A stretch of 64,000 bases of DNA. Source: an uncultured Latescibacterota bacterium. GTDB lineage: Bacteria; Latescibacterota; UBA2968. The stretch spans positions 386,394-450,393 of the forward strand of contig OY282377.1 of NCBI GenBank assembly GCA_958295785.1, in the 5' to 3' direction. The translations under genes and the position numbers were made by a program. The notes beneath the pieces were generated by a model, which saw nothing but the letters and a program-made list of their open reading frames with translations, searched no databases and had not been told where the DNA came from. Shown in pieces: positions 21,666-40,627 of this stretch (the stretch's first letter is position 1; the number at the start of each line of letters is the position of its first letter).

Positions 21666-23090
21666 TTACTCGTAACAATCGGCAACCATCTCTATGGACA
21701 GCACCTCATTCCTTCTAACCTGCATATAAGCAAAGTCGTTCGCATTGAAATCGAAACGGGAGAATCGGAGATATTTGCCACCGGTATTCGCAACGCACAA
21801 GGGCTGGCGCGGGATGCGGAAGGCAACCTCTGGGCGACGGATCACGGGCGGCAAGGCGGGGACGAACTGAACCTGGTACGGGAGGGAGCCGATTATGGCT
21901 GGCCGCTGGTCTCTTATGGCATTGGCTACGGCGGTGTCGCTCTCCGGCTAGTCGAAGACGAGGCGGTGGGCCGGCACGACGGCTTCCTGCGGCCGGCGTT
22001 CGCATGGGTCCCAGGCCCAGCCGTTTCCGCCATCGCCGTCAACGACGAGGAGCATCTTCCCTTGTGGAAAGACGACCTGCTGGTTGTTTCGCTGGTCGGT
22101 CAATCCCTCTTCCGAGTCCGCCGCTACGGGACGGACGTGCAGTATGTCGAAAGGATCGAACTCGGCTATCGGATACGAGACATTACGGTTATGCCGGACG
22201 GACGCATAGCCCTGCTGCGCGATGGGGGGTGGGTCTATTTTCTGAGCCGTTCCGCGAGGTACTGCAATGAAGAAGCGCGGAAACAGCGCAATGTGTACTC
22301 AGTCAACTGCGATTCCATCGCCGCATCGCCAGCCCTGGACTCACCGGGCGCGGGAGACTCGGGGCCGGCAGTTCCGCCCTTACGCGGAAATCTGGGGAGA
22401 TACACGGCGGCCGGCGCTCAGTTATTCGGCCAGCACTGCCGCAACTGTCACAACCTGAACGCCGAGCAGCACAGCACCGGGCCTCACGGCGTCGGGCCGC
22501 ACCTGTTTGGCGTCATCGGGCGGCGAGCGGGCGAGGTCGGAGGCTACCGATTTTCGGCTGCGTTCGATTCGCTGGACGTCGTCTGGACGCAGGACCACAT
22601 CACGCAGTTTCTCACCGACCCGGAGCAGTTCACTCCAGGCACGTCCATGTCGTCGCATGGCATTGGCGAAGCGGAAGCCCGCGCCATAGCCAACTACATC
22701 AGCACCCTCAACGACCTGGAGGAGGTGGTCAGAAATCGCGAACCGGCAGTCCGCTCCGACTTTGACGTATATCTCAGCGAAAACATGCTGGTCTATGCCA
22801 GGGAGCCGTGCGCCCGCGCCGACACGGAGGCGATGTTCTTTCTGCACGTCCTCCCCATCAACCCAAATGACCTCCCAGACCATCGCAAGCAGTACGGCTT
22901 TGACAACCTGGACTTCGATTTCGAGGGGCACGGCATAAGAATTGCCGGGAGATGTATGGCGACGGTGGCTCTCCCGGGGTATGACATTATCCGCATCAGG
23001 ACCGGCCAGTACACCATCGGTAAGGGCTGGATCTGGGGAGGAAGCTTCGATGTTGCCGAGCCGGCGGATGAGGGGAAAGCCGCACCGTGA
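21666..23090 (+). pseudogene. Glucose/sorbosone dehydrogenase-like + cytochrome c + shared C-terminal domain, 5' truncated (unit 1)
   Basis: The frame is open from the IS5 edge with no start. Order: the end of a PQQ-type sugar dehydrogenase propeller (ATGIRNAQGLARD, ATDHGRQGGDELNLVREGADYGWPL), then a class I cytochrome c with haem site CRNCH (near 22435) and a late methionine, then the shared FDVYL domain (about 22749-22990). The final tail (IWGGSFDVAEPADEGKAAP) matches the tail of the glycosyltransferase at 31504, not that of its own paralogue at 29562. The propeller frame is intact here where the other copy is frameshifted. Confidence 0.78.
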
Positions 23091-23139
23091 ATGGCGGGGG
23101 CGAAACAGCGCTGATGGTTTGCACCACATCAGGGACATG

Positions 23140-23366
23140 GACATGAACATGAACAAGAAGATGACCACGCCGAATGCCGCCGCGCCGATGGGTCGCTGGC
23201 GCGTCCTGGCCTACGGGGCCAGGTTAGCCGTGTACATGCTCGCCCGCTTCGATCTCGTCAACCTGATCCACGACGTGATCGAAAGACGACGCCTTCTACT
23301 ACTTCCAGCCAATCCCCGTCCCGAATATGCGCCACGAAATGCGCCATTACGTCCAAACGACCTTTA
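23140..23366 (+). pseudogene. Degenerate GT-C glycosyltransferase N-terminal remnant
   Basis: The stretch between the dehydrogenase and the arylsulfotransferase-like gene (23091-23438) contains no intact gene. Its DNA resembles the first membrane segment of the glycosyltransferase at 31640-31745 (WRVLAYGARLAVYMLARFDLVNLI) before drifting out of frame. A near-identical remnant lies at 33910-34128. Confidence 0.5.
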
Positions 23367-23438
23367 ACCCCTAACCACTGCTTCTATGGTTGCTTTTCAC
23401 CTCTCCCGTTTCATCCCCTTTATCCAATGGAGGAACCC

Positions 23439-25256
23439 ATGAAATACCGTCTCTTCTTTCAAAAATTCCCCCTTCGTGCATATCCGTGCCTAATACGGCC
23501 TATCGTCTTGTGTGGCATAGCGGTAGCTTCACTGCTAGCCTGTAGCACAATGAAGCCGAGCGAAAAGTCAATGCCACGTCCAACAGTGGTGCCAACAGTC
23601 GGGTTGCTTCTGAACGAGCCGGAGGCATTTGTCGGCTATACTTTATTTTCTAAACGCTACAGCAAGACGATTTACCTGATTGATAATCAGGGGCGGGAGG
23701 TGCACCGGTGGGAGTTGGCTGATAAGACCCAGTCCGCCAGGTTGCTTGAGAATGGAAATCTGCTGGTTTTTTCCTCACAAGGCGAGCACCCCCCTGTGAG
23801 GGAAGTTGACCGGCACGGGAACGCCGTTTGGGAATGCACTCAGGCGCGTCTGCATCATGACTTCCTTAAAATGCCCAACGGGAACGTGCTACTGCTGTCC
23901 CGGCAACGTAAAACGCCGGAGGAGGCCATCGCCGCCGGCGCCGACCCGGACTTCATCGACACGGATGGCTTGGTGGTGCCGCATATTATTGAAGTCAACC
24001 CCACCGGGCCGGCAAACTGCGAAATCGTCTGGGAATGGTCGGCGTGGGATCATCTGATACAAGACTTTGACTCGAGCAAGGCGAACCATGGGGTCGTGGC
24101 AGAGCATCCAGAGTTGATCGACATCAACTTTCGCCTTTCCAGCACGCACTCGGAGGAGAGGAACTGGGCACATAGCAATGGAATGGACTACAACCCGGAG
24201 TTGGACCAGATCATCCTGTCGGCGCGCTATTTCAGCGAAGTGTGGATTATCGACCACAGCACCACTAGGGCAGAGGCGTCCAGCCACAGCGGCGGAAGGT
24301 CCGGCAAGGGGGGCGATCTGCTGTACCGCTGGGGCAACCCCCGCAGCTATCGCGCCGGAACTCCCGACGATCAGCAACTCTTCTGGCAGCATAATCCCCA
24401 ATGGATCGCCCCTGGCCTGCCGGGTGCCGGAAACATCCTCATTTTCAACAATGGCCACGAGTTCGGAGATTTCTCGCGTGGCTATTCGTCGGTGGACGAG
24501 ATTGCTCCGCCGGTGGACGGGGCCAACTATCGGCTAAATCCGCACTCCGCCTACGCGCCGGCAGAACCTGCATGGGTCTACACTGCCGCAACGCCCAGCG
24601 ACTTCTTCGCAAAATATATCTCAGGAGCGCAACGGCTTCCCAACGGAAACACGTTGATTTGCGACGGTGTCCACGGCACGCTTTTCGAGGTCACGCCGGC
24701 TGGGAAAACCGTGTGGAAATATGTCAACCCTTCGACCGCCAAGGGCCCTCTGATTCAAGGCGAGTCGGTGCCGTTGGAACAACAGGGTGATCCGGTCAAT
24801 CGGTTGTACCGCGCTTACCGGTATGCACCGGACTACCCGGGTCTGCAAGGGCTGGATTTGACCCCGGGTGATCGGATCGAGGTAATGTCAATCAGCGATT
24901 ATCTGATTCGTCTGACGGGTGGCAGCCCGCCGGTCATCCGATCCGATTGGGATGTGTATCTCGTCGGGAACAGTCTCATCTACAAAAAGGAGCCGTGCAT
25001 CCCGGAGGACGCTGAACCAACATTCTTCCTCCACCTGGACCCGGTTGACATGAACGACCTCCCCATCCATCGCAAGCAGTACGGCTTCGACAACCTCGAC
25101 TTTGCTTTCGGGGATCACCGTTCTCCCATCGGGGGAGAAGTCTGCGTAGCGATACGGGAGTTGCCTGGTTACAGCATCGCCGCGATCCGCACCGGGCAGT
25201 ACGTGCGCGTGGACAGCGGTATTGAAAACCTCTGGAGTGGAGAGATACGCCGATAA
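23439..25256 (+). CDS. Arylsulfotransferase-like (ASST) lipoprotein with shared C-terminal domain (unit 1)
   Basis: 605 residues. The N-terminal signal peptide ends in SLLACS, a lipobox, so the protein is probably an exported lipoprotein. The body is a six-bladed propeller of the Arylsulfotran family: repeated blades such as IYLIDNQGREVHRWEL and HHDFLKMPNGNVLLLSRQ, histidines in HDF and HSN, and RLPNGNTLICDGVHGTLFEV. The last about 100 residues form the shared domain (24932-25256), with a tail identical to that of the glycosyltransferase at 38243. GGAGG precedes the ATG. The substrate is unknown; family members move sulfate between phenolic compounds, but many 'Arylsulfotran_2' proteins are uncharacterised. 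Confidence 0.78.
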   Translation: MKYRLFFQKFPLRAYPCLIRPIVLCGIAVASLLACSTMKPSEKSMPRPTVVPTVGLLLNEPEAFVGYTLFSKRYSKTIYLIDNQGREVHRWELADKTQSARLLENGNLLVFSSQGEHPPVREVDRHGNAVWECTQARLHHDFLKMPNGNVLLLSRQRKTPEEAIAAGADPDFIDTDGLVVPHIIEVNPTGPANCEIVWEWSAWDHLIQDFDSSKANHGVVAEHPELIDINFRLSSTHSEERNWAHSNGMDYNPELDQIILSARYFSEVWIIDHSTTRAEASSHSGGRSGKGGDLLYRWGNPRSYRAGTPDDQQLFWQHNPQWIAPGLPGAGNILIFNNGHEFGDFSRGYSSVDEIAPPVDGANYRLNPHSAYAPAEPAWVYTAATPSDFFAKYISGAQRLPNGNTLICDGVHGTLFEVTPAGKTVWKYVNPSTAKGPLIQGESVPLEQQGDPVNRLYRAYRYAPDYPGLQGLDLTPGDRIEVMSISDYLIRLTGGSPPVIRSDWDVYLVGNSLIYKKEPCIPEDAEPTFFLHLDPVDMNDLPIHRKQYGFDNLDFAFGDHRSPIGGEVCVAIRELPGYSIAAIRTGQYVRVDSGIENLWSGEIRR

Positions 25257-25266
25257 GGAGAATAAT

Positions 25267-25773
25267 ATGAGCGATACTGCTGACCTCGGCCGGGGAGTGC
25301 AAGGGGAACCCTCTCGCAAGAAAAGTGTCCGGTTCCCTGCTTGGACAACAGGCAGGCGGCCCGATCGCTTCACCCTGCTCCTCGCCGCCCTTGCAGTGCT
25401 GGGCGCCGTACTCATCCTGGCGCGGCAGGTCACCTATGGGGTGGGGTTGCACGGGGATTGGGTCACCTATATTTCTGTGGCCCGAAGTCTGCTGGCGGGA
25501 GAAGGCTTCGTTCAAATTCACGGTTGGCCCTATCTGCACTGGCCGCCGCTGTATCCGATGCTGCTCGCCGCGGCCAGCCTCTTTGCGTTTGACCCCTACG
25601 ACGTCGCCGGGCCGTTGAATGCCGTCGTCTTCGGCCTGACTCTATTCGTCGCCGGTCAATACTTGCGGCGGCATGTGCAACACCCTTTCCTGGTTATTTG
25701 GGCTTGTCTCGCCCTCATGCTGGCAATCCCCTTGACCCGGGTGGCCTCTCACGCAATTTCCGAGGCGCCCTAA
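25267..25773 (+). pseudogene. GT-C glycosyltransferase (PMT/ArnT-like), N-terminal third only
   Basis: 168 residues: a proline-rich lead, a membrane segment (LLAALAVLGAVLILARQ), then the DWVTYISVARSLLAGEGFV loop with the acidic residue typical of GT-C enzymes, and further membrane segments. It ends at SHAISEAP because the hsdS target triplet TAA supplies the stop codon. Normal family length is 450-800 residues, so it is a truncated remnant at the cargo's right edge. Confidence 0.72.
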
Positions 25774-26234
25774 GCCGCCTAGATATATTAAAGCACCACA
25801 ACAAAGACGATTTAGGTAATTTGACCAATTTTGTTATAGGGCCATTTGGTTCTACTGTAACGGCCGATCAATATATAGCTGAATCTCAACATAGATATAT
25901 AAGAAATAAGGATATAGGAGACTTCCGTATTGCGGATAATGAACCCGCACTAATACCAAAGAACGTGTACGATTCTTTGCCAAAGTTTCATATTCAAGAG
26001 AATGATTTGTTGATTACAGTTGTCGGCACTCTTGGCAAAGTTGCTATCGCAACCCATAAGGATACTAAGTTGATTTTTAGTTGTAAGAGTACAATCATTA
26101 GAACAAGAGGGATTAACCCATTCTATATTTTGGCATACCTCAATTCCAATACTGGAAAACTATTTTCACTGAGAGGAAAGAGAGGCGCGATTCAAGAAGG
26201 GCTGAACTTGACCGATCTAAAAGAGATACAAGTG
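25774..26234 (+). pseudogene. hsdS: hsdS middle fragment (unit 1)
   Basis: It encodes SRLDILKHHNKDDLGNLTN through NLTDLKEIQV, a target-recognition domain of a type I specificity subunit (GPFGSTVTADQY, NDLLITVVGTLGKVAI). It is cut at 26235 by IS701 copy 1. The same stretch with its continuation is found at 41146-42457. Confidence 0.82.
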
Positions 26235-27325
26235 TAGGACTTACGCATGCTGAGTTAAAAAAGGGTGCAATTCCGTAAAATTTATCACTTTGAGGAGGTG
26301 TCAATGCGCCAACCGACGCGTTTGGATTACTGTCAGTATCTGCTTAGCAGTCCCCTCAACTATACCCTGACCCATTTCGCCGACCATAGCGGAGGGTTCA
26401 GTCATGATATGATCAACCGCTATCTCGCCGGTGAGCGTATCCCCCCCGCTTGGTGTGGGAACACGTCAAAGCCCCCATCGCGTTGACGCCCAAAGGCGAT
26501 GTGATCTTTGATGACCCGGTTTTAGACAAGCGACACGCACGCAAGATCGCGTGAGTGCGTCGTCAATATAGCGGCAACGCCCAAGGCGTCATCAATGGCA
26601 TTGGGGTGGTCACATGTGTCTATGTCAATCCGCAACAGGATCGGTTCTGGCTGATTGACTATCGGATTTATGACCCGCAAGGCGATGGCAAAACCAAATG
26701 GGATCCTCTCAAGGACATGCGCTCTGCGTTGGTCTATCAGAAGGGCCTCCCTTTTACCGGGGTCTTGATGGACAGTGGGTATGCGACCAAAACAGTCATG
26801 CGACACAGAGAGCAGATGCAAAAAACCTATTCTTGTCCCCTCAAGACGAACCGGCGCGTGGACGAGTAGGCAGGCACAATCCCCTACCAGCGCGTAGATA
26901 GCTTAACTTGGACTCAAGCGCAACGCAAACAAGGCAAGCGAATTAAAATCAGAGGGTTTCCCAAAGACCACAAAGTGAAATGATTCCGGGTGGCGTCTTC
27001 TGATAGACGCACGGCGTATGTCGTGACCAACGACCATGCTCAAAACGATTCTTCAGGGGTACAACAGGTGTGTCACAGGCGATGGAAAATTGAGCCATTT
27101 CACCGCGAAGTCAAACAGGTGACCGGGCTTGAAAAATGTCAATGTCGGTTGGCACGCATGGTACGAAATCATATTGGGTGTGCGATGTTCGTTTGGATTC
27201 GACTCGCGCAGGTGGCCTATCAAACAGGACAAACCATTTATCAAGTCAAATACCGGGGGGTGGCTGACTTCTTGAGACAACAACTCAAAGTACCTCATAT
27301 TCCAATGGAGATTGCGTAAGTCCTA
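26235..27325 (+). mobile_element. IS701-like insertion sequence, copy 1 (at a rearrangement join)
   Basis: 1,091 bp with ends TAGGACTTACGCA and the inverse. The left flank is hsdS and the right flank is hsdM coding sequence, with no shared target duplication, so this copy marks the join of a tandem duplication rather than a simple insertion. Confidence 0.88.
26304..27319 (+). pseudogene. IS701-like transposase, heavily mutated (copy 1)
   Basis: It starts MRQPTRLDYCQYLLSSPLN and ends PHIPMEIA. It carries a frameshift near 26450, a TGA after ARKIA (about 26552) and the TAG after TNRRVDE that all three copies share. The DDE-fold segment VIFDDPVLDKRHARK and the C-terminal QRWKIEPFHREVKQ-type region are recognisable. 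Confidence 0.82.
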
Positions 27326-28054
27326 TTTGATATTCTGATGGCCAATCCGCCCTTTGCCGGCGACATCAAGGAAAGCCGCCTGCTGCATCAATACGAACTC
27401 GGGTTTAAGGCAAACGGCAAGGCGCAAAGCAAAGTCGGGCGCGACATTCTGTTTATTGAGCGCAATCTGGACTTTCTAAAACCCGGCGGGCGCATGGCGA
27501 TAGTGCTTCCGCAAGGCAGATTTAACAACACAACCGACAAATATATCAGGGCATTTATCGCGGAGCGCGGGCGCATCCTCGCCGTGGTCGGATTACACGG
27601 CAACACGTTCAAACCGCACACGGGCACCAAAACCAGCGTGTTGTTTGTGCAGAAATGGGACGATAAACTTTGTCCCAAAGTAGAGGACTACCCCATCTTT
27701 TTTGCCGTGAGCGAAAAGGGAGGTAAAGACAACTCCGGCGATTACGTCTATCTCAAAAATGAGAAGGGACAGGACAAGCTGGACAGAAACGGCCATCTGA
27801 TCGTCGATCATGACTTGCACAACCACGACGGTGAACTGCCCGATGGCATCGCCGAAGCCTTTATCGAATGGGCGAAAGGCGAGGGATTGAGTTTTTGGAG
27901 AAATGAAGAATGTGGTTTGGAAACGGATCGCCGCACCGCAGGGCGGAACTTTGTTCGCAACAATCGCAAGCGGGAATTATATGTCGATCCCGATGCCGAT
28001 ATTTCTCGTCTATGCGATGAAATGAACGACATGGAAATGGAGTTTGCAAAATGA
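27326..28054 (+). pseudogene. Duplicated 3' third of the hsdM-like gene
   Basis: It begins FDILMANPPFAGD, the catalytic NPPF motif of the methylase, exactly at the IS701 edge and matches 19835-20563 to the stop. It has no start and lacks the AdoMet site, so it is non-functional. Confidence 0.9.
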
Positions 28055-28134
28055 TCTATATTGACACGGATGTTTTTATACATGCCTATGTCGTTAAGGT
28101 AGGAATAATGAGAAGGTACTGTCCCTTCAGATAA
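28051..28134 (+). pseudogene. PIN-like gene remnant, second copy
   Basis: Same 27-codon frame as at 20560-20643, again overlapping the hsdM stop. Confidence 0.45.
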
Positions 28135-28144
28135 AGGAATAAGT

Positions 28145-28226
28145 ATGCAAGTCTCCACTGTCTGGTATCAAGACCTCAATCCTGAGTTTAGGATTGATGC
28201 AGAGTACTATCGGAAAGAAGTAATAA
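28145..28226 (+). pseudogene. hsdS: hsdS 5' fragment, second copy
   Basis: Same 82 bases as 20654-20735, again cut at TAA by an IS5-type element. This is the copy physically in line with the hsdS remainder at 41146. Confidence 0.8.
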
Positions 28227-29156
28227 GAGTCCCTAACAAAAAGGGTTGACATGGATTTGTGAGAGGCCGATTTTCTTCTCAGCCCAACCCTTACAACGTC
28301 CATGCCCGGCATCTTTACCGGGCGAGGAGGGACAAATGTCCAAACCATGGGTGAGCGATGCACTCTGGGAAAAGGGCCACCCCCTTTTGCCGGTTCCCAA
28401 GCCTGGACGGTTCCGCTTTCCCGGACGTAAGCGCATTGACGACCGCAAGGCGTTGACCGGCATTCTATTCGTCCTGAAGAGCGGCATCCCGTGGGAGAGG
28501 TTGCCCCAAGAGATGGGGTGGGGTTCCGGGATGACCTGCTGGCGTCGTCTGAAGGCATGGCATGACGCCGGCGTGTGGGAGCGGCTTCATCATCTGCTGT
28601 TGTCCAAACTGCGAGCGGCCGATGGCCTGGCCGGGTCTCGTGCCTGCGTGGACAGCGCCTGCCTGCGTGCGGTAGGCGCTGGGGGAAAACCCGGCCCCAA
28701 TCCCACAGACCGCCGCAAGCCCGGGCGTAAGCATCATGTCATGGGATCACCGATGCCAACGGGCTGCCTCTGGCCGCGATTGTGACCGAGGCGAACCGGC
28801 CAGATGTGACGCAATGGTTGCCATGGGTGGACGCCGTGCCTGCGGTCAGAGGCAAACGCGGTCGTCCGCGCCGCAGACCCCAACGGCTGTATGCAGACCG
28901 TGCCTATGACTCGAGGGCACACCGGAAGGCCCTGCATGCACGCCACATCTGGCCGGTGATCGCCCGACGGGGTGCAGAGCATGGTAGCGGGTTGGGTGTG
29001 TACCGGTGGGTCGCTGAGCGGACGCTGGCCTGGCTCCGGCAGTTCGGCAGACTGCGAGTGCGCGACGAGCGCAGAGCGGACATCCATGAGGCGTTCCTCT
29101 CCATCGGCTGTTCTCTCATCTGTTTCAGACGCTTGATTTCTTTATGTTAGGGCTTC
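28227..29156 (+). mobile_element. IS5-family insertion sequence, copy 2
   Basis: Same 930 bp element as at 20736. Here both flanks are TAA (28224-28226 and 29157-29159), a 3 bp duplication, so this copy looks like the original insertion and copy 1 the rearranged one. Confidence 0.88.
28336..29150 (+). pseudogene. IS5-family transposase, frameshifted (copy 2)
   Basis: Same two-frame structure as at 20845-21659. Differences from copy 1 lie in the C-terminal region (RWVAERTLAWLRQFGRL here). Confidence 0.8.
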
Positions 29157-29157
29157 T

Positions 29158-29478
29158 AAGTACATTCGGCAAGAAAATCGGCTGAAAGCTTATGGGTCAA
29201 TGCTCGTCTTATGTCGCTTGGCTACGGTATGCAAAGATGCGAAAGACCTTTTGGGATCAAAAAAGTATAAGTTTTGGCTCGTCGTTAGCGGCATAAATAT
29301 GACAGATGCCGAGGAGTTTGAGGCCAAAAGAATTTTTGATAATCTGAAAGACCATTTATACAGCGACCTGAAAAGCGTCTTAGGAAAAGAAATGGTAGAT
29401 GATGTCGAAATCGTACCCTCCCATGTATTTGTCGGCAAATTGCCAACGCAGGCGCCATTTTACCAAATGACGCTCTGA
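29158..29478 (+). pseudogene. C-terminal fragment of an unidentified protein
   Basis: Open from the IS5 edge: KYIRQENRLKAYGSMLVLC onward, ending APFYQMTL. It has a balanced soluble composition (KYKFWLVVSGINMTDAEEFEAKR). I do not recognise it. It is absent from unit 1. The stretch 29479-29561 shows nothing further. Confidence 0.4.
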
Positions 29479-29561
29479 AACCGTCGAATAGGGCGAGAGG
29501 TTTAAGCGAATTTGGGGCAATAATCTCGGGGTCTATATGTATCAAAAAAATGGAGCATGTC

Positions 29562-31514
29562 ATGCTGGAGACAACAAGTTATTGGAGGAAATCCGCTTTG
29601 AACAGTATCAGAACATTGTGCCATAGAACGTGGCACGGCTTTCGGCCCGTGTTCCGGCTAATCGCGCTCGCCCTATTTGGAGTTCTCGCAGCCGCCTGCT
29701 CTGAGGACCCAGCGCTGACGGAGACGGAGGGGCCGGTTCTCACCACTCATCTGTACGCGCTGGAGAGCGAGTCCGTCAGACTCGAAAGTTTCGACGGAAG
29801 CGGCGGGGCCATTGAAAGCATAGGTGAGGACCTGCTTGTCGTTACGCCGAAGGGAAGGTTTGCCCTGGTCTTCCCGGACACTTCTGCTGAAAGAGATTGA
29901 GGAAGGGTACATACTATTTGCTACCCATCACTATTTCACCGGAGAATGTGTCCGGTTCAGGTTGTCATCCACGACGCTGGTTCGGGAAGGACAGAGGTTG
30001 ACAGTCCTGCCGGATTGGAGAACGATATTCGATGCGGAGCCATGTTTGGAACAACTTGATGGATGGCAGAATGCAGGCGGGAAGATGCTGACGGATGGAG
30101 AAGAACACTTACTCGTAACAATCGGCAACCATAAATATGGACAGCGCCTCATTCCTTCTAACCTGCATATAAGCAAACTCGTTCGCATTGAAATCGAAAC
30201 GGGAGAATCGGAGATATTTGCCACCGGTATTCGCAACGCACAAGGGCTGGCGCGGGACTCGGAAGGCAACCTCTGGGCGACGGATCACGGGCGGCAAGGG
30301 GGGACGAACTGAACCTGGTACGGGAGGGAGCCGATTATGGCTGGCCGCTGGTCTCTTATGGCATTGACTACGGCGGTGTCGCTCTCCGGCTGGTTGAAGA
30401 CGAGATGGTGGGCCGGCACGACGGCTCCCTGCGGCCGGCGTTCGCATGGGTCCCAAGCATAGCCGTTTCCGCCATCGCCGTCAACGACGAGGAGCATCTT
30501 CCCTTGTGGAAAGACGACCTGCTGGTTGCTTCGCTGGCCGGTCAATCCCTCTTCCGAGTCCGCCGCTACGGGACGGACGTGCAGTATGTCGAAAGGATCG
30601 AACTCGGCTATCGGATACGAGACATTACGGTTATGCCGGACGGACGCATAGCCCTGCTGCGCGATGGAGGGTGGGTCTATTTTCTGAGCCGTTCCGCGAG
30701 GTACTGCAATGAAGAAGCGCGGAAACAGCGCAATGTGTACTCAGTCAACTGCGATTCCATCGCCGCATCGCCAGCCCTGGACTCACCGGGCGCGGGAGAC
30801 TCGGGGCCGGCAGTTCCGCCCTTACGCGGAAATCTGGGGAGATACACGGCGGCCGGCGCTCAGCTATTCGGCCAGCACTGCCGCAACTGTCACAACCTGA
30901 ACGCCGAGCAGCACAGCACCGGGCCTCACGGCGCCGGGCCGCACCTGTTTGGCGTCATCGGGCGGCGAGCGGGCGAGGTCGGAGGCTACCGATTTTCGGC
31001 TGCGTTCAATTCGCTGGACGTCGTCTGGACGCAGGAACGCATCAAGCAGTTTCTCACTGACCCGGAGCAGTTCGCTCCAGGCACGTCCATGGCGTCGTCT
31101 GGCATTGGCGAAGCGGAAGCCCGCGCCATAGCCAACTACATCAGCACCCTCAACGACCTGGAGGAGGTGGTCAGAAATCGCGAACCGGCAGTCCGCTCCG
31201 ACTTTGACGTATATCTCAGCGAAAACATGCTGGTCTATGCCAGGGAGCCGTGCGCCCGCGCCGACACGGAGGCGATGTTCTTTCTGCACGTCCTCCCCAT
31301 CAACCCAAATGACCTCCCAGACCATCGCAAGCAGTACGGCTTTGACAACCTGGACTTCGATTTCGAGGGGCACGGCATGAGAATTGCCGGGAGATGTATG
31401 GCGACGGTGGCTCTCCCGGGGTATGACATTATCCGCATCAGGACCGGCCAGTACGTGCGCGTGGACAGCGATTTCGATAACCTCTGGGCAACGGAAATCC
31501 ACTATGAACAGTAA
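29562..31514 (+). pseudogene. Sorbosone-dehydrogenase-like / cytochrome c lipoprotein gene with two frameshifts (unit 2)
   Basis: The 5' part encodes a lipoprotein signal (LFGVLAAACSED). The frame changes near 29890 and again near 30295, where one base is missing compared with unit 1 (GGDELN becomes GGTN-stop). The remainder is intact: end of propeller, cytochrome c with CRNCH (near 30880), and the shared domain from 31188. The tail RTGQYVRVDSDFDNLW differs from that of unit 1. Read together, the ancestral protein was about 640 residues, periplasmic and membrane-anchored, oxidising a sugar or alcohol and passing electrons to its own haem. Confidence 0.75.
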
Positions 31515-33858
31515 TGGGAACGACCTACAAGGCTTCGCACTAAACAATCTGTGGCGCGCCCTGATTGTGCTCTATCAGAACATAAGTACGGGGGCCTTGC
31601 CTCCCCGGCTACGCAACGCGCTGTTCGCCCTGTTCATCGGGGGCGTCCTGGCCTACGGGACCGCGTTCGCCTGGTACATGCTCGCCCGCTTCGATCTCAT
31701 CAACCTTATCTCCAACACGCACGATGACGCCTTCTACTACTTCCAGATCGCCCGCAACCTGGCCGAGGGGAAGTTCTCGACCTTCGATGGCGGCATCACG
31801 CGCACCAACGGATACCACCCCCTCTGGCTGTTTCTGATCACGCCGTTCTATTGGGTATTCGACAAGGAAGCCGCGCTGTTCGGCATCAAGGCGTTCGAGA
31901 TCATGCTCGTTGCCGGCGGCGTAGCCCTCGTCGCCGCAGCCGCCCGGCTGGCGCGCATGCCCTATATTCTGCTGTTCGCCGCGCTGCCGATGCTCTACGA
32001 CATCCCCATGTTGATTGCAGGAATGGAAGCAGCAGCGGCGCTGTTCATGCTGGGCCTGTTCATTCTGACCGCCTGCCTCTTTGCGCGAAGCCCGGTGCGG
32101 TGGCAGTGGCCGTTGGCCGCGGTCACCTTCGCCCTGCCTTGGGTGCGCTTGGAGTACATCGCTATATCGTTGGCGGCGACTGCCGCGCTGTGTCTGATTG
32201 AGTGGTCGTGGCAGGAACGAGCGCCTAGCGCGTCACTCGGAGAGCGGGCTCGTTCCGCGCGCTCCGTGAAGGCGGTCGTCCCGTTTCTCGCCGCCGGTGC
32301 AGGCATCCTGGTGTATTTCGCCTACAACTGGCTCGTGTTCGGCGGCATCGTGCCGGTGAGTGGCGCGACCAAGCAGGCCCGGTCGCAGGTCAAGTGGGAG
32401 CAGGAAGGTGGATACAGCTTGGTGCAGAACTTTCGGGACATATTGCAGATTCCTGTCTTTGACTACGAGTTGCTGGTTGCGCTGGAGGTTTGCGCCTATT
32501 TGCTGCTGGTCTGGTGGTTCGCCCGCCGCTCCCGAAGTCGGCAGGACTTACTGCTGTTGGCCTTTCTGGTGGGCGTGTTCAGTTTGGCGGCCGGCCATCT
32601 GGCCAAATTCGCACAGACTGTTTTCACGATTCACCCTTCCTTGGGGCCTTGGCCTTGGTATTTTGTCCCGGCGTACCTGATGATGGTGCTGATTGTTCCC
32701 GTACGATGTTACGTCGCCATTTACTTCATTCGCCGGTTCATCGGGTCGAAGTCGCAGCATGTGACCAACATCCTGAGTTTGGGCATCGTCCTTACGGGCG
32801 CGGCCTTCCTGTTTATCAAGGCCGATTTTGCCGAGCCATTTCAGCGTGTTGAAGCGATTAGTGTCTCAACCAGAACTGACGACAAGTGGATTAAAGCCGT
32901 TTCTTACAACGAATGGACTGAAGCTGTTTATGGGGGTACGCAGCTTATGAATCGCGTACTTCCCGAGGACAGCGTGGTCGGGTCGTGGGAGGCCGGCGTC
33001 ATCGGGTACTTCTCGCGCTTTCCAGTGGTGAACTTGGATGGCCTAGTCAACTCCTACGACTATTTCCACGCGAGATACGCTAGAGACGGATATGCTCCTC
33101 TCTATCGAGAATTCGGGATAACTCATTTTGCCGCACTTAAGCACTTTGAAGGTTCACCACTAAATATCCTCAATAGATGGGAACTCCGACTATGGCCCAT
33201 CGGTCTGCCGGCAGATGAAAATGCCGTCGCCAAGACTTGGGAGAGGATTGAACCCCACTTCGACCATCAGTCGGATAGCATCGGGCTGATCGTGGACGGC
33301 CGGCTGGCGCTGGCGTTCGTCAGGAATTGTGCGCCGAACGAGTTGGTAGTGTTGTCTTGGGTTGGCCTAGGAGAGGAAACGGTCGCCAACGACTGGACGC
33401 AAACTGGGCCGTGCGTGGACGCGCTCGTGCTGCCCCGCAATGCGCGCCCACCGGTCAGTGTAGAAACAACGGATGCCCCTCTGGGCGATCATCTGGCAAG
33501 ACTGCTCGGAGACAGCCCGCCGGTAATCCGCTCCGATTGGGATGTGTATCTCGTCGAGAATAGTCTCATCTACAAGAAGGAGCAATGCACCCCGGAGGAC
33601 GTTGAACCAACATTCTTCCTTCACCTGGACCCGGTTGACATGAACGACCTCCCCATCTATCGCAAGCAGTACGGTTTCGACAACCTGGACTTCGCTTTCA
33701 GGGACCACATTGAGGGAAGAGTCTGCGTAGCGAGGCGGGCACTGCCTGATTACGCCATCGCCGTGATCCGCACCGGCCAGTTCACCGGCGAGGGCCTGAT
33801 CTGGGAGGGCAGTTTCGATGTTGTCGATCCGGCGGATGCCGGGAAAGCCGCGCAATGA
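31504..33858 (+). CDS. GT-C membrane glycosyltransferase with shared C-terminal domain
   Basis: 784 residues. About ten membrane segments fill residues 40-460, beginning after a short cytoplasmic lead. The THDDAFYYFQIARNLAEGKF loop (acidic pair after the first membrane segment) and TRTNGYHPLWLFLITPFYW match PMT/GT-C enzymes that use lipid-linked sugars on the outer face of the membrane. A soluble domain (about 460-670, WEAGVIGYFSRFPVVNLDGLVN) follows, then the shared domain (33520-33858). The ATG overlaps the preceding dehydrogenase stop by 11 bases. The family has not been characterised biochemically, to my knowledge. Confidence 0.75.
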   Translation: MNSNGNDLQGFALNNLWRALIVLYQNISTGALPPRLRNALFALFIGGVLAYGTAFAWYMLARFDLINLISNTHDDAFYYFQIARNLAEGKFSTFDGGITRTNGYHPLWLFLITPFYWVFDKEAALFGIKAFEIMLVAGGVALVAAAARLARMPYILLFAALPMLYDIPMLIAGMEAAAALFMLGLFILTACLFARSPVRWQWPLAAVTFALPWVRLEYIAISLAATAALCLIEWSWQERAPSASLGERARSARSVKAVVPFLAAGAGILVYFAYNWLVFGGIVPVSGATKQARSQVKWEQEGGYSLVQNFRDILQIPVFDYELLVALEVCAYLLLVWWFARRSRSRQDLLLLAFLVGVFSLAAGHLAKFAQTVFTIHPSLGPWPWYFVPAYLMMVLIVPVRCYVAIYFIRRFIGSKSQHVTNILSLGIVLTGAAFLFIKADFAEPFQRVEAISVSTRTDDKWIKAVSYNEWTEAVYGGTQLMNRVLPEDSVVGSWEAGVIGYFSRFPVVNLDGLVNSYDYFHARYARDGYAPLYREFGITHFAALKHFEGSPLNILNRWELRLWPIGLPADENAVAKTWERIEPHFDHQSDSIGLIVDGRLALAFVRNCAPNELVVLSWVGLGEETVANDWTQTGPCVDALVLPRNARPPVSVETTDAPLGDHLARLLGDSPPVIRSDWDVYLVENSLIYKKEQCTPEDVEPTFFLHLDPVDMNDLPIYRKQYGFDNLDFAFRDHIEGRVCVARRALPDYAIAVIRTGQFTGEGLIWEGSFDVVDPADAGKAAQ

Positions 33859-33909
33859 ACGGCGGGGCGAAACAGCGCTGATGGTTTGCACCACATCAGG
33901 GACATGGAC

Positions 33910-34128
33910 ATGAACAAGAAGATGACCACGCCGGATGCCGCCGCGCCGATGGGTCGCTGGCGCGTCCTGGCCTACGGGGCCAGGTTAGCCGTGTACATGC
34001 TCGCCCGCTTCGATCTCGTCAACCTGATCCACGAAGTGATCGAAAGACGACGCCTGCTACTACTTCCAGCCAATCCCCGTCCCGAATATGCGCCACGAAA
34101 TGCGCCATTACGTCCAAATGACCTTTAA
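33910..34128 (+). pseudogene. Degenerate GT-C N-terminal remnant, second copy
   Basis: Counterpart of 23140-23366, almost identical. The stretch 33859-34199 otherwise contains only a ribosome-binding site (GGAGG) for the next gene. Confidence 0.5.
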
Positions 34129-34412
34129 CCCCTAACCACTGCTTCTATGGTTGCTTTTCACCTCTCCCGTTTCATCCCCTTTATCCAATGGAGGAACCCA
34201 TGAAATACCGTCTCTTCTTTCAAAAATTCCCCCTTCGTGGATATCCGTGCCTAATACGGCCTATCGTCTTGTGTGGCATAGCGGTAGCTTCACTGCTAGC
34301 CTGTAGCACGGTGAAGCCGAGCGAAAAGTCAATGCCACGTCCAACAGTGGTGCCAACAGTCGGGTTGCTTCTGAACGAGCCGGAGGCATTTGATGGCTAT
34401 ACTTTACTTAAT

Positions 34413-35504
34413 TAGGACTTACGCAATCACCATTGGAATATGAGGTGCTTTGAGTTGTTGTCTCAAGAAGTCAGCCATCCCCCGGTATTTGACTTGATAA
34501 ATGGTTTGTCCTGTTTGATAGGCCACCTGCGCGAGTCGAATCCAAACGAACATCGCACACCCAATATGATTTCGTACCATGCGTGCCAACCGACATTGAC
34601 ACTTTTCAAGCCCGGTCACTTGTTTGACTTCGCGGTGAAATGGCTCAATTTTCCATCGCCTGTGACACACCTGTTGTACCCCTGAAGAATCGTTTTGAGC
34701 ATGGTCGTTCGTTACGACATACGCCGTGCGTCTATCAGAAGACGCCACCCGGAATAATTTCACTTTGTGGTCTTTGGGAAACCCTCTGATTTTAATTGAC
34801 TTGCCTTGTTTGCGTTGCGCTTGAGTCCAAGTTAAGCTATCTACGCGCTGGTAGGGGATTGTGCCTGCCTACTCGTCCACGCGCCGGTTCGTCTTGAGGG
34901 GACAATAATAGGTTTTTTGTATCTGCTCTATGTGTCGCATGACCGTTTTAGTCGCATACCCACTGTCCATCAAGACCCCGGTAAAAGGAAGGCTCTTCTG
35001 ATAGACCAACGCAGAGAGCATGTCCTTGAGATGATCCAATTTGGTTTTGCCATCGCCTTGCGGGTCATAAATCCGATAGTCAATCAGCCAGAACCGATCC
35101 TCTTGCGGATTGACATAGACACATGTGACCACCCCAATGCCGTTGATGACGCCTTGGGCGTTGCCGCTATATTGACGGCGCACTCACGCGATCTTGCGTG
35201 CGTGTCGCTTGTCTAAAACCGGGTCATCAAAGATCACATAGCCTTCAGGCGTCAACGCGATGTGGTCTTTGACGTGTTCCCACACCAAGCGGGGCGGGAT
35301 ACGCTCACCGGCGAGATAGCGGTTGATCATATCATGACTGAACCCTTCGCTATGGTCGGCGAAAGGGGTCAGGGTATCGTTGAGGGGACTGCTAAGCAGA
35401 TACTGACAGTAATCCAAACGCGTCGGGTGGCGCATTGATACCTCCTCAAAGTGATAAATTTTACGGAATTGCACCCTTTTTTAACTCAGCATGCGTAAGT
35501 CCTA
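34413..35504 (-). mobile_element. IS701-like insertion sequence, copy 2 (reverse orientation)
   Basis: 1,092 bp, ends TAGGACTTACGCA...TGCGTAAGTCCTA. The flanks CTTAAT at 34407-34412 and 35505-35510 form a 6 bp target duplication. It is inserted in the arylsulfotransferase-like gene. Confidence 0.92.
34419..35435 (-). pseudogene. IS701-like transposase with two in-frame stops (copy 2)
   Basis: It starts MRHPTRLDYCQYLLSSPLND, has a TGA after ARKIA and the shared TAG after TNRRVDE, and ends PHIPMVIA. Despite the stops, the element has a clean target duplication, so it was probably moved by a transposase supplied in trans. Confidence 0.85.
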
Positions 35505-37186
35505 CTTAATAAACGCCGCAGCAAGACGATTTACCTGATTGATAATCAGGGGCGGGAGGTGCACCGGTGGGAACTGGAGGTTAAGACCCTGTTCGCCAAG
35601 TTGCTGGAGAATGGAAATCTGCTGACTCTCGACCGTCGACACCCGGACTCCGCCCCGGGGCCCAGTGTGTGGGAAGTTGACCGGAACGGGGACACCCTTT
35701 GGGAATGCACTCAGGGCATTCCGCACCATGACTTCCACCATGACTTCCTTAAAATGCCCAACGGGAACGTGCTGCTGCTGTCCCGGCAACGTAAAACGCC
35801 GGAGGAGGCCATCGCCGCCGGCGCCAACCCGGAATTCATCGGCGATAAGGGCTTGCTGGCGCCGCATATTGTTGAAGCCCGAATTACCGGGCCGGCAAGC
35901 TACGAAATCGTTTGGGAATGGTCGGCGTGGGATCATCTGATTCAAGACTTTGATTCGAGCAAGGCCAATTACGGGGTGGTGGCCGAGCATCCGGAGTTGA
36001 TTGACCTTAACTTCCGTCTTTCCGAGGTAGCCGGCTGGAGGGACCCGTCGGACTGGATGCACAGCAATGGAATCGACTATAACCCGGAATTGGACCAGAT
36101 TATGCTGTCGGCTCGTCATTTCAGCGAAGTGTGGATTATCGACCACAGTACCACCCGGGCAGAAGCGGCCGGCCCCAGCGGCGGAAAGAGCGGCAAGGGG
36201 GGCGGCCTGCTGTACCGCTGGGGCAACCCGCGGGCCTATCGCGCCGGGACGCCCGCTGACCAGCAACTCTTCTGGCCGCATAACCCGCAATGGATCGCCC
36301 CCGGCCGGCCGGGCGCCGGCAACATCCTCATTTTCAACAATGGCGTCGAGTTCACGGATTTCCGGCGCGGTTATTCGTCGGTAGATGAGATTGCTCCGCC
36401 GGTGGACGGGGCCAATTACCGGCTGAATCCCGGCCTGGCTTATGCGCCGGCAGAACCCGTATGGACTTATACCGCCCCAACACCCAGCGACTTTTACGCC
36501 CCTGTTATCTCAGGGGCGCAACGGTTGCCCAACGGAAACACGCTGATTTGCGATGGGGTGCATGGTACGCTTTTCGAGGTCACGCGGGCCGGCAAAACGG
36601 TTTGGAAGTACGTCAACCCGATGACCAGCAACGGCCCTTTGCGTCAAGGCCAGGCGGTGCCGACGGAACAACCAAGCAGTGGTAGAGAAATACTGGCTAA
36701 TCAGGTGTACCGGGCTTATCGGTATGCGCCGGACTACCCGGGTCTGCAAGGGCTGGATTTGACCCCGGGTGATCGGATCGAGGCAATGTCAATCAGCGAT
36801 TATCTGATTCATCTGACGGGTGACAACCCGCTGGTCATCCGCTCAGACTGGGATGTGTATCTCGTCGAGAATACTCTCATCTACAAGAAGGAGCCGTGCA
36901 TCCCGGAGGACGCTGAACCAAGGTTCTTCCTCCACCTGGACCCGGTTGACAGGAACGACCTCCCCATCTATCGCAAGCAGTACGGCTTCGACAACCTCGA
37001 CTTTGCTTTCAGGTACCACGGCCTCATCGAGGGAAGAGCCTGCGTAGCGATACGGGAGTTGCCTGATTACGCCATCGCCGCGATCCGCACCGGTCAGTTC
37101 ACCGGCGAAGGCAGGGTCTGGGAGGGCAACTTCACCTACAACTCTCTGTCCGATAAATCGGAGGCACTACACATGGAGGATCCCCA

Positions 37187-38176
37187 ATGAAGGAGAATGC
37201 CCTCCGAAACGCGCGAGTCATTCTGCTACATTTGCCGTGGTTGGCGCTGCTGGGATGGTTCTCCTCTGTCGCGTGGTTCCTGTGCGACGACGCGTTCATC
37301 AGCTTCCGCTACGTCCGTAACCTGCTCAAAGGCCACGGCCTGGTGTTCAACCCCGGCGAATATGTCGAGGGCTATTCCAATTTCCTGTGGGTGCTGGAAC
37401 TGGTCGCCATCTGGTGGGCGCTGGACGTGGCCCCGGAGGACGCGGCGCCGTGGCTGTCGGTCGCCTTTACCGCCGGCACCATCGCCGCGATGATGTGGTG
37501 GATCGCACGTCTGCCGTTGCTGTGCCACCGGGGGCTGGTCGCATGGATGACTCAGGGCCTCGTGTGCGCCAGTGCCACCTTCGCGGTGTGGACGTCCGGC
37601 GGCGGACTGGAGACGCGGCAGTTCACCTTCTTCATCGTCCTGGCCGTGGTGTGCCTGAGCCTTTACAGAGACAGCCGCCGGGGCCTGCTGGTGGCGTCGT
37701 TGAGCCTGGCGGCTGCCGCCTTGACGCGGCCCGAAGGCCCGCTGTTGGCGGCGTTGTGCTTCGGTTGGTTCGTCATCCAGCGGATGGCGGACACCGGGCG
37801 TCTCAATCCGGACTGGCGGCGGTTGATCTGTTTGGCAGCGCCCTTTGTCATCCTAGTCGGCGCCCATTTCCTGTGGCGATACTCCTATTACGGCGAATGG
37901 CTGCCCAACACCTATTACGCCAAGCATGTGCGGCCGTGGTATGAGTCGGGTTTTCGCTACCTGTGGTCGGCGGTGCTGGAGACCGGGCTGTATCTGCTGA
38001 TCCCCTTGGCCGCAGTCGCCATGCGGAATCGCTGGCGAGCATCCCAGGACGGGATATGGGCGCTGGCGCTACTCCTGGTCGGCGTCCACATGGCCTATGT
38101 GATGCGGATCGGCGGCGACCATTTCGAGTACCGTCCGCTGGACTTCTACTGGTCGCTACTATTGACATCTGCATGA
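37187..38176 (+). CDS. GT-C type membrane protein, C-terminally truncated
   Basis: 329 residues with about eight membrane segments. CDDAFISFRYVRNLLKGHGLVF and GEYVEGYSNFLWVL, and the late RIGGDHFEYRPLDFYW, are hallmarks of a ZomB-like GT-C family whose members usually run past 550 residues. Here the frame ends just after YWSLLL, so the C-terminal soluble half (and any shared domain) is missing. The ATG overlaps the arylsulfotransferase-like stop (ATGA). Confidence 0.7.
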   Translation: MKENALRNARVILLHLPWLALLGWFSSVAWFLCDDAFISFRYVRNLLKGHGLVFNPGEYVEGYSNFLWVLELVAIWWALDVAPEDAAPWLSVAFTAGTIAAMMWWIARLPLLCHRGLVAWMTQGLVCASATFAVWTSGGGLETRQFTFFIVLAVVCLSLYRDSRRGLLVASLSLAAAALTRPEGPLLAALCFGWFVIQRMADTGRLNPDWRRLICLAAPFVILVGAHFLWRYSYYGEWLPNTYYAKHVRPWYESGFRYLWSAVLETGLYLLIPLAAVAMRNRWRASQDGIWALALLLVGVHMAYVMRIGGDHFEYRPLDFYWSLLLTSA

Positions 38177-38242
38177 CCAAGAGCAGACATTCTCAGAAGC
38201 GTTGTTCGGGAGTGTCTTCGGCATCATTTAGGCCATCAAAAA

Positions 38243-40627
38243 ATGGGGGGATACTTGAGGGTTCGAGCACTATTGGGGATGTTTGGCTTCCGCGCGTCCC
38301 AAGTTCCACATCCGGTTTGGGCCCTCGTCGTATGCGCGGTCTTCACCGCGGTGGGTGTCGCTGTCCTCGACGACTACGGCGTATCGTGGGACGAGTTTCG
38401 TCAGCGCGAAATTGCACTGGAGACGATCAGTTACGTTCTCGGCCAAGACGACGAGCTTATGAGAAATAATCTTAGGAGAGATCACCTTAAGTTTTACGGC
38501 ACGGCATTCGAGTTGCCGCTCTTGATTGTCGAGCGCGTCCTGGGACTGCAAGACGACACCCGCGCCATCTTACTTAGCCGCCACATCCTGACCCACCTGT
38601 TCTTCATAGCGAGTGGATTCTTCTGCTATTTGCTGATACACCGGCTGTTCGGCAGTACGGTCATCGCGCTGTTCGCTATGTTGCTGTTCCTGCTGCATCC
38701 TCGACTGTACGCTGAATCCTTCGTCAACACCAAAGACCTGCCCCTGGTCGCTATGTTTATGGTTGCCCTGTTCCTGACTCACCGGGCTTTCAGCAAAGAT
38801 ACCGTGGGTGCGTTCCTGCTGTGCGGCCTGGCCGTCGGCATTCTCATCAACATTCGCATCTTGGGCGTGGTCTTGTTCGCCGCCGTGCCTGCCGTACGCG
38901 CTCTGGACTTGCTCTTTGACTCTGGGGGAGTGGGTAGAAAACACGCATTAATCACCGGCAGCGTGTTCGCCCTGGCCGCAATGTTCGCCCTTTACGCTAC
39001 CCTTCCCTACCTCTGGGCTAACCCCATCGAGCGCACAGTCGAGATGTTCGTCACGCTGTCCCGTCATCCGGTCGCGTTCCCCATACTGTTCCAAGGCGAG
39101 TTGATAATGGGAAACGATCTGCCGCCTCATTACATCCCAACTTGGGTCGCCATTACGACCCCGCCCGTCGCGCTCCTGCTGGGCGTTGCCGGAATAATCG
39201 CCATCATCCGTCGCGGCTGGGCCAGTCCCCGAGACATGCTGCGCCACGGCAACCTGAAATTTGGCTTCCTGCTAATCGGCTGCCTGATTATGACCTTCAT
39301 CGCAGTCGTCGTGGTTACTCCCACAATGCGCAGCGGATGGCGAGTGACGTACTTCCTCTACGCGCCGTTTTGCGTGCTGGCAGCGTTCGGGCTGCCTTGT
39401 CTGGCCTCTGTCTCGGGGCGTACAGTCGTCCGCGCGGTGGCCTACACCTTCGTGGGAGTGGGTATTCTCATCGTTGTCCTGCAAATGGTTCGGATTCATC
39501 CCTATCAGCAAGTATACTTCAATTTCTTGGTGGACCGGGAAACGCCTGGACTCCTCGGCGGCCAATATCCGCTGGAATACTGGGGGACTTCTTACCTGGA
39601 CGGTCTGCGCTATCTGACGGAGACGTATCCGGACTCACATATACATGTGTGGGGTAGTTTTACAGGGCAATACCTTCGGAATCGTGCGTTTCTTCCAGAG
39701 TCAGCCCGGCAGAAAATAGTGATCAAAGGCGAAGGAGAGACCATCGGTGATTTCTACATCACCAACCACTTTAACATCTCCACTCACAGAAGTAAGGAAG
39801 CTGTATTTGCTCCTATCGTCCACCGCCGCGAGGTGTACAACAACCCGATCCTGAGCGTTGCCGTCCTTAACCTGTCGGCAGTGGACGATACCACCGCCGA
39901 CGCCTACCGGCAAATCTACCGGGATGCGGTGACCGGTTCCCCGGTGGCCAGCGGCAGTGGCTTTGACGTGTACCACAACGAATCGGAAAAAACGCTGACT
40001 TACGTCAACGAATCCTGTGAACCCAAGGACGTATTCAACCGTTTCGTGCTTTCCCTGATTCCGTTTGACGCGAACAATTTACCGGTATATGTCAAGCAGA
40101 AGGGCGGGAATCAGCGCAATCTGTATTTCGACTTTGGCGAGAAGGGTGTAAAGTTTGACGGAAAATGCTTAATGGTCTTTCAGCTCCCTGAGTACCCCAT
40201 CTTCCAGATTAGTATAGGTCATCGGCTCGGCGGCCAGTACCATTCTTGGGGAAACCTCATCGAATTGAGAGAGATGGAAAGAATAATCGAAAATGCCGGC
40301 GATCCGGTTATCCGCGGGAAATTTGACGTGTATCTGGGGGAAAACCTTTTGATTTACTCCAGGGAGCCGTGCGCCCCAGCGGATATTTCGGACAAATTCT
40401 TTTTACACTTGATTCCCGCCGACCAGGATGACCTGCCGGACAACCGCCAGCAGTACGAGTTTGACAACCTGGACTTTAACTTCGCCGAAGCCGGCGGAAT
40501 AGCCGAGGGCAAGTGCATCGCGCGGGTTGTCTTGCCGGACTATCCCATCACCCGAATCCGCACCGGCCAGTACGTGCGCGTGGACAGCGGTTTTGAAAAC
40601 CTCTGGAGTGGAGAGATACGCCGATAA
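38243..40627 (+). CDS. GT-C membrane glycosyltransferase with two tandem copies of the shared C-terminal domain
   Basis: 794 residues: membrane segments from about residue 25 to 430, with DDYGVSWDEFRQREIALETI (acidic GT-C loop) and HPRLYAESFVNTKDLPLVAMF. A soluble linker (about 430-560) follows. Domain copy 1 (39957-40270, diverged, ending in a different SIGHRLGGQY version) precedes domain copy 2 (40309-40627, FDVYLGENLLIYSREPCAP to RTGQY). The tail is the same as in the arylsulfotransferase-like protein of unit 1. The start at 38243 is uncertain; a later ATG at 38279 is possible. Confidence 0.72.
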   Translation: MGGYLRVRALLGMFGFRASQVPHPVWALVVCAVFTAVGVAVLDDYGVSWDEFRQREIALETISYVLGQDDELMRNNLRRDHLKFYGTAFELPLLIVERVLGLQDDTRAILLSRHILTHLFFIASGFFCYLLIHRLFGSTVIALFAMLLFLLHPRLYAESFVNTKDLPLVAMFMVALFLTHRAFSKDTVGAFLLCGLAVGILINIRILGVVLFAAVPAVRALDLLFDSGGVGRKHALITGSVFALAAMFALYATLPYLWANPIERTVEMFVTLSRHPVAFPILFQGELIMGNDLPPHYIPTWVAITTPPVALLLGVAGIIAIIRRGWASPRDMLRHGNLKFGFLLIGCLIMTFIAVVVVTPTMRSGWRVTYFLYAPFCVLAAFGLPCLASVSGRTVVRAVAYTFVGVGILIVVLQMVRIHPYQQVYFNFLVDRETPGLLGGQYPLEYWGTSYLDGLRYLTETYPDSHIHVWGSFTGQYLRNRAFLPESARQKIVIKGEGETIGDFYITNHFNISTHRSKEAVFAPIVHRREVYNNPILSVAVLNLSAVDDTTADAYRQIYRDAVTGSPVASGSGFDVYHNESEKTLTYVNESCEPKDVFNRFVLSLIPFDANNLPVYVKQKGGNQRNLYFDFGEKGVKFDGKCLMVFQLPEYPIFQISIGHRLGGQYHSWGNLIELREMERIIENAGDPVIRGKFDVYLGENLLIYSREPCAPADISDKFFLHLIPADQDDLPDNRQQYEFDNLDFNFAEAGGIAEGKCIARVVLPDYPITRIRTGQYVRVDSGFENLWSGEIRR

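Follow-up and report, generated by a model that had tools for sequence, protein, structure and literature searches.

A multi-copy C-terminal domain of envelope proteins, shared across bacterial phyla and swapped between unrelated carriers

We describe a domain of about 100 residues that is encoded seven times in a 64,000-nucleotide stretch of contig OY282377.1 (the window), from the genome of an uncultured Latescibacterota bacterium. The domain is a sequence family of its own, found at the C-termini of unrelated proteins; it occurs in many copies per genome in metagenome-assembled genomes (MAGs) of several phyla, has been transferred between phyla and expanded within genomes, has been swapped between carrier proteins and is under purifying selection. 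We propose, giving the proposal an even chance, that it is an extracytoplasmic docking module, probably for a glycan acceptor, whose gene arrays are exchanged across phyla in a sponge community and which recombines between carriers. A preliminary description of the window had assigned the seven copies to five kinds of gene product; they lie where it placed them, all on the forward strand, but in six open reading frames (ORFs) of three kinds, namely sugar dehydrogenase/cytochrome c (GSDH), arylsulfotransferase-like (ASST) and GT-C glycosyltransferase proteins. The seven align as one family over about 100 residues, with 27 invariant columns. Copy 1 (22761..23087) is the C-terminus of the GSDH1/cytochrome c fragment and reaches the end of its ORF; copies 2 (24948..25253) and 5 (36849..37178) are the C-termini of ASST1 and ASST2, copy 3 (31203..31511) ends GSDH2/cytochrome c, and copy 4 (33538..33855) ends the GT-C-like protein GTC1. 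A divergent copy 6 (39962..40291) is the first of a tandem pair in GTC2, of which copy 7 (40322..40624) is the C-terminus.

The same description had recognised no named family in this segment, and searches of Pfam, NCBIfam and PDB sequences bear this out. None of the seven copies matches any Pfam model, fn3 included, at E <= 10; their single NCBIfam match (E 0.058) is far under the cut-off of its model, and the best hit in the PDB sequence search had an E-value of 0.41, which is no match. The profile search that it suggested, run with a profile of the seven copies, recovered the same seven and further copies in the genome. Open-licence PubMed Central (PMC) full text, judged by title and start of abstract, yielded no paper naming the domain, also when the motif YGFDNLDF was included. 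The domain is a family that two annotation libraries miss.

The domain is confidently predicted to be a beta-sandwich module: AlphaFold2, run on 68 sequences from the window and the named loci, returned a beta-rich fold with a mean predicted local distance difference test score (pLDDT) of 95.4 and a predicted template-modelling score of 0.85. Its structural neighbours in Foldseek are FN3 and immunoglobulin (Ig) domains, at weak scores (best E 6.9e-3), and the best VIA-align match (Z 7.0, root-mean-square deviation 3.1, 81 residues aligned) is under Z 8, the level that the tool advises trusting. Because these scores are below the trusted level, we call the domain FN3/Ig-like and not a member of either group. 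It resembles FN3/Ig-like accessory domains in having beta-sandwich neighbours, at these weak scores, by both methods, and differs from them in the missing Pfam match, the low Z score, two conserved cysteines and a long conserved loop. Both cysteines are present in 63 of the 68 aligned copies, both are replaced in three and one only is replaced in two; they are thus mostly kept or lost together, as a disulfide, and hence an extracytoplasmic place, would predict, and the domain probably contains one disulfide. The most conserved stretch is the loop P-x-D-x-x-DLP-x-x-R-x-Q-Y-x-F-D-N-L-D-F (model residues 41-63), which is polar and aromatic. The ratio of nonsynonymous to synonymous substitution rates (dN/dS), taken over pairs that are not independent, has a median of 0.40 for the domain (1,498 pairs, 0.5% above 1) and of 0.47 for the carriers (150 pairs), and the domain is under purifying selection.

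The family is far from confined to the window. The seven-copy profile gives 30 rows at E <= 1 in the window's genome (G000; one contig, 5.66 Mb), the seven among them, and a wider profile finds 28 stretches at E <= 1e-5, seven of which are inside the window and two of which come from one gene. A scan of named genomes with one peptide pattern identified 38 loci in 21 records, all of them MAGs with OY282xxx or CATQH accessions. Their titles name Binatia, Gammaproteobacteria, Pseudomonadales, Entotheonella, Latescibacteria, Caldilineaceae, Dehalococcoidia, Bryobacterales, Vicinamibacterales and Nitrospirales, which by title fall into the broad groups Latescibacteria, Gammaproteobacteria, Binatia, Entotheonella, Chloroflexota, Acidobacteriota and Nitrospirota. 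These MAGs were chosen by having a pattern match, so that 21 of 21 is not a frequency; the result is the copy number, 7 to 63 stretches per genome. The possibility that the domain is a duplication artefact of a single locus, raised in the preliminary description, is ruled out by the copies across the genome and in many MAGs. An assembly artefact is also unlikely, as the single-contig relatives G008 and G037 have no copies and the sequences differ between genomes.

Among relatives of these genomes (centre genomes left out of the counts), the domain is rare. In the phylum of the window's genome it was found in one of 63 relatives (G046, with the same matches as OY282352, one of the 21 MAGs), in the Caldilineaceae in 13 of 45, each with one or two distant copies, and in the phylum of the Entotheonella MAG in none of four. 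For four further groups scoring was limited to the best 12-16 candidates of each genome, so that counts are lower bounds and a miss is possible: at least one of 292 in the order of a Pseudomonadales MAG (a weak match), at least three of 342 Dehalococcoidia with at least 14 copies each, at least three of 395 in the phylum of the Bryobacterales MAG with one to three distant copies each, and none detected among 394 in the phylum of the Nitrospirales MAG. In total, four of 1,535 relatives are multi-copy and 17 have a distant low-copy form, with one to three copies per genome. G008, a single-contig genome of the same genus as the window's genome and 98% identical to it in 16S ribosomal RNA (rRNA), has no copies, nor have the other nine genomes of that genus. 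A search of phage sequences gave no match, and 11 pattern matches in IMG/VR include no relative; the plasmid search gave one weak match (E 2e-3, 32%) to a Bernardetia protein annotated as OstA-like, which we do not count as kin. The Nitrospirales MAG contains two head-to-tail copies of a roughly 7.2-kb block that holds three domain-bearing genes (L164, 942-15440).

Carriers of the domain have moved between phyla. A 16S rRNA gene was found in 15 of 24 genomes, and these genes are 73-79% identical between phyla; for the genomes without one (both Binatia, the Nitrospirales and Vicinamibacterales MAGs, Gammaproteobacteria-titled G065, G075, G079 and G082, and Dehalococcoidia G084) the labels are record titles. 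Between genomes with 16S rRNA that belong to different phyla, 260 DNA segments of 1,500 nt or more are shared, at 68-93% identity. Among the closest, the window shares 2,316 nt at 92.7% DNA identity with Entotheonella locus L056 (16S 76%) and 2,239 nt at 91.6% with Pseudomonadales locus L058 (16S 75%), another locus of its genome (L151) shares 1,988 nt at 91.2% with Bryobacterales locus L038 (16S 78%), and a longer segment links Latescibacteria L035 with Pseudomonadales L036 (88.8% over 4,300 nt; 16S 78%). Carrier DNA up to 93% identical between genomes whose 16S rRNA is 75-78% identical means that the carriers moved laterally. The highest identity across labels, 95.3% between a Binatia and a Gammaproteobacteria MAG (L031, L032), is not counted as proof because these labels rest on record titles. 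In trees of two GT-C carrier families the phyla are intermingled, with 8 label changes against a least possible 5 (19 rows) and 10 against 4 (22 rows); the labels nonetheless cluster more than shuffling would mostly give, with 1 of 200 shuffles reaching so low a count in each tree, and the Caldilineaceae rows form one clade. Loci of the window's genome were labelled Latescibacteria by inference, since it falls in the class of G046 (whose matches are those of G068, that is OY282352; 16S 84%). An AftB-like GT-C protein is 79-86% identical across six record labels.

The catalytic domains that carry the module in other genomes, which the preliminary description had wished to see tabulated, turned out to be of several enzyme types in nine clusters. 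From 21 stretches (20 fetched regions and the window) we collected 90 carrier genes with 106 copies of at least about 85 residues; after three genes with N-terminal parts under 80 residues were dropped, 87 carriers fell into nine BLASTP clusters, which are single-linkage clusters of which several may be far kin (GT-C-like clusters 0, 3, 4, 5 and 8). Most carriers are GT-C-like membrane proteins, and at least four transmembrane (TM) segments are predicted in 63 of the 87. The largest cluster comprises two subfamilies, one of which matches the AftB model weakly (NCBIfam E 9.4e-7, 27 bits; cut-off 1050) and one of which has no match and is called GT-C-like from linkage and motifs. Further representatives are PMT, PMT_2, Agl23-like, GSDH plus cytochrome c, ASST and SGNH/GDSL-like hydrolase proteins and an unnamed 7-TM family. 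Pfam, run on 63 chosen carriers of the named MAGs (loci L031-L068), found PMT in nine, PMT_2 in six, ASST in six, GSDH in four and cytochrome c in two, the rest being single matches or none. The recognised enzyme types act outside the cytoplasm. Up to four copies stand in tandem in one protein (L155, L156). An unnamed family of about 460 residues (L163 9695-11083 and kin, cluster 1) has 6-8 predicted TM segments and bears the domain in 18 genes; the one member scanned had no Pfam or NCBIfam match.

The domain has also been swapped between unrelated carriers. Domain pairs at or above 85% DNA identity across 240 nt or more number 298. In 46 of them the two carriers belong to different clusters and show no BLASTP similarity; 24 of these pairs are found inside a single genome and 22 across genomes. 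Such near-identical domains on unrelated carriers mean that the domain was swapped. The large GT-C-like cluster is joined with ASST in 22 of the 46 pairs, and the closest pair (96.9% over 259 nt) joins a 7-TM protein and a GT-C-like protein of a Caldilineaceae MAG. Ends of shared DNA concentrate just ahead of the domain and in its 3' tail, with 23-50 ends per 1000 sampled positions at the domain edges against 0.8-11 in other bins; these are BLAST ends, which mark where homology ends, pairs were counted in both directions, and tandem copies inflate the count. The pile-up shows modularity, not single crossovers. Within the window, ASST1 tracks ASST2 as far as the IRTGQ codons (84% over 911 nt). 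Its tail and the DNA that follows (25185..26235, forward strand) match the DNA from 40556 on, where GTC2 ends, at 98.6% identity over 1052 nt: at the IRTGQ codons the ASST1 body runs on into the 3' end of another carrier. GSDH1 and GSDH2 share 98.6% identity over 912 nt, again as far as these codons, beyond which they diverge. We considered site-specific recombination at the TGQ codons for these junctions and do not claim it, because the ends range from about 20 nt before to at least 160 nt after TGQ, and across the 100 nt that precede the domain start, a spread expected of homology edges.

Swapping at the DNA level and tandem copies, together with broken genes and insertion sequence (IS) elements in the window and a domain dN/dS much like that of the carriers, would also suit a neutral passenger, the ordinary C-terminal domain of one carrier lineage spread as recombination homology in mobile glycan-gene arrays. 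We hold this to be unlikely, since the domain is under purifying selection and the conserved loop and the range of carriers are hard to explain without a shared partner.

Distant relatives of the domain stand in several settings. In nine Caldilineaceae genomes (L113-L121) it lies between the first and last parts of a protein of about 700 residues, with GSDH before it and cytochrome c after it by Pfam in the five of the nine proteins scanned. The L183 copy comes after a PMT_2-like part (match below cut-off), the L185 copy forms the end of a membrane protein to which Pfam gives no match, and the L122 copy stands between predicted membrane segments of a GT-C-like protein. The simplest reading is of an old extracytoplasmic accessory domain of envelope enzymes, amplified and passed round one kind of community. 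These positions bear on the idea that the domain is a C-terminal sorting or anchoring signal like the type IX secretion C-terminal domains, which its Ig-like fold and its place at the end of unrelated extracytoplasmic proteins would suit. Type IX C-terminal domains are single and sit at the extreme C-terminus of secreted proteins, whereas the present domain occurs in tandem and on polytopic carriers, which need no such sorting, and some of its relatives are internal; type IX secretion, moreover, is not known from several of the phyla. We regard a sorting signal as highly improbable.

The tandem copies, the two cysteines and the periplasmic or membrane nature of the carriers agree with a common interaction module outside the cytoplasm. 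In the docking reading, the module would fold outside the cytoplasm at the carrier C-terminus, singly or in tandem, on proteins that are mostly of kinds building or tailoring surface glycans (GT-C-like glycosyltransferases, arylsulfotransferases, sugar dehydrogenases and SGNH hydrolases), and would dock them to one common extracytoplasmic partner, probably the glycan acceptor on which they work. Arrays of module-bearing genes would pass between phyla in a community apparently living in sponges, and recombination of the module's coding DNA between carriers would give rise to new enzyme-plus-module combinations. We infer docking, the most likely role by analogy with the C-terminal domain of EmbC, and with it a glycan ligand and a benefit in the sponge. 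According to an excerpt of PMC3044687, substitutions of conserved tryptophans in the C-terminal carbohydrate-binding module of EmbC inhibited glycan extension and differentially abrogated acceptor binding. The likeness to EmbC and the mycobacterial GT-C enzymes, as far as that excerpt goes, is a hydrophilic C-terminal domain on a membrane GT-C glycosyltransferase, and this architecture recurs here: GTC2 (PMT_2-type), AftB-like, PMT and Agl23-like carriers have several predicted TM segments and then the domain. A further likeness to that group is the weak AftB match (27 bits against a cut-off of 1050) of one carrier subfamily. Unlike the EmbC module, the present domain has no PDB sequence match, is also found on ASST, GSDH, SGNH hydrolase and 7-TM proteins, and occurs in tandem and in up to 63 stretches per genome, and its glycan binding is putative.

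Several observations weigh against the docking reading. The fold match is weak (Foldseek E >= 6.9e-3, Z under 8), and the full-length GT-C model, at a pLDDT of only 45.7, does not place the domain relative to the active site. For several carrier groups the GT-C assignment is based on weak profile matches, numbers of TM segments and motifs judged by eye, and we know of no case of GSDH or ASST acting on the acceptors of GT-C enzymes. A dN/dS of 0.40 against 0.47 in the carriers means that the domain is not specially constrained, and since three of the six window carriers are broken, not every copy works. Segments common to Chloroflexota MAGs and other phyla are only 68-77% identical in DNA and so do not demonstrate recent transfer for that phylum. 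Finally, the case for a sponge origin consists of a single listed record from the accession series together with the kinds of taxa.

The multi-copy MAGs appear to be sponge-associated. One accession, OY282360, is listed with the environment "Sponge metagenome" in an excerpt of PMC12239599, while OY282387-OY282418 belong to a moth according to a part of PMC11513577; as the series is mixed, a sponge is no more than the presumed source of each MAG and of the window's genome. Several of the MAG taxa agree with taxa that have been reported in sponges, Petrosia ficiformis being one such host (PMC12648040, in part). FN3 and cadherin genes are reported to be enriched in sponge symbionts and, with other surface genes, to have moved laterally among them (PMC8163846, in excerpt), and the likeness of our system to these FN3, cadherin and eukaryote-like repeat genes is that surface-related genes moved between lineages in sponge communities. 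The present domain, which is not named in that excerpt, differs in its many copies and its shuffling among enzyme families. Lateral transfer among sponge symbionts is thus known from gene surveys; here it concerns one concrete, unnamed module, with 7-63 matches in each of the 21 MAGs, shuffled among nine clusters of carriers and missing from a relative as close as G008. This setting and the weak FN3/Ig-like neighbours would also agree with host or neighbour adhesion, in which the domain would attach to sponge matrix or to other symbionts and the enzymes would do no more than display it at the surface. We find this quite unlikely: most carriers have four or more predicted TM segments, a poor adhesin site in outer-membrane bacteria, and distant relatives lie between membrane parts or between GSDH and cytochrome c. 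The docking reading may be carried further, to symbionts of many phyla within a single sponge sharing the module as a kind of community currency for docking to a common glycan matrix, an extension that strikes us as rather doubtful. If it holds, any member could plug in an enzyme acquired from another phylum, and swapping would diversify surface glycans under pressure from host phagocytes or phages. The domain offers a marker of, and a testable handle on, what community members share at cell surfaces.

The window itself is a rearranging, partly decayed array, with all carriers on the forward strand. GSDH1 (21966..23090, Pfam) has the C-terminal part of a sugar dehydrogenase, cytochrome c and the domain, its 5' part being missing, and GSDH2 (29544..31514, Pfam), with the same order of domains, is split over frames 3/1/3. 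ASST1 (23427..25256; Pfam PF05935, 6.5e-27) is open throughout and has a lipoprotein-like N-terminus by eye, whereas ASST2 (35499..37190, Pfam) is split, with its first 75 residues apart at 34188-34412. GTC1 (31504..33858, the start at 31504 being our reading) is open throughout and encodes a polytopic GT-C-like protein with 10 predicted TM segments and no Pfam match; GTC2 (38243..40627; Pfam PF13231, 5.3e-8), a PMT_2-type GT-C protein with the two tandem domains, is also open throughout. Between them, a GT-C gene of the AftB-like subfamily (37187..38173, forward strand, assigned from the NCBIfam match of full-length kin) is cut short at its 3' end, at residue 329 of 690 in those kin, ahead of where the domain would be. 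IS4/5-type and DDE transposases and pieces of a type I restriction system are interspersed among the carrier genes, including IS4/5-family transposase ORFs adjoining GSDH1 (20755..21656, forward strand, Pfam), with matching ORFs again at 28246-29147. No Rfam match was found anywhere in the window, where an RNA element had been considered.

A type I restriction-type methylase gene (18323-20560) has a matching partial copy of its 3' part at 27338-28051, and both stretches are followed by the same IS4/5-type ORFs; this repeat of methylase and transposase ORFs implies that segmental duplication enlarged the island. Also present twice is the start of a GT-C-like gene (25414-25764 and 40786-41136; 37-38% to a kin protein), and the second ORF runs into a piece resembling a restriction specificity subunit (Pfam, below cut-off). 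Adjoining the carrier array and the type I restriction pieces is a phage-defence-like gene (43719-44504) with AbiJ N-terminal domain 4 and DUF7014 (Pfam).

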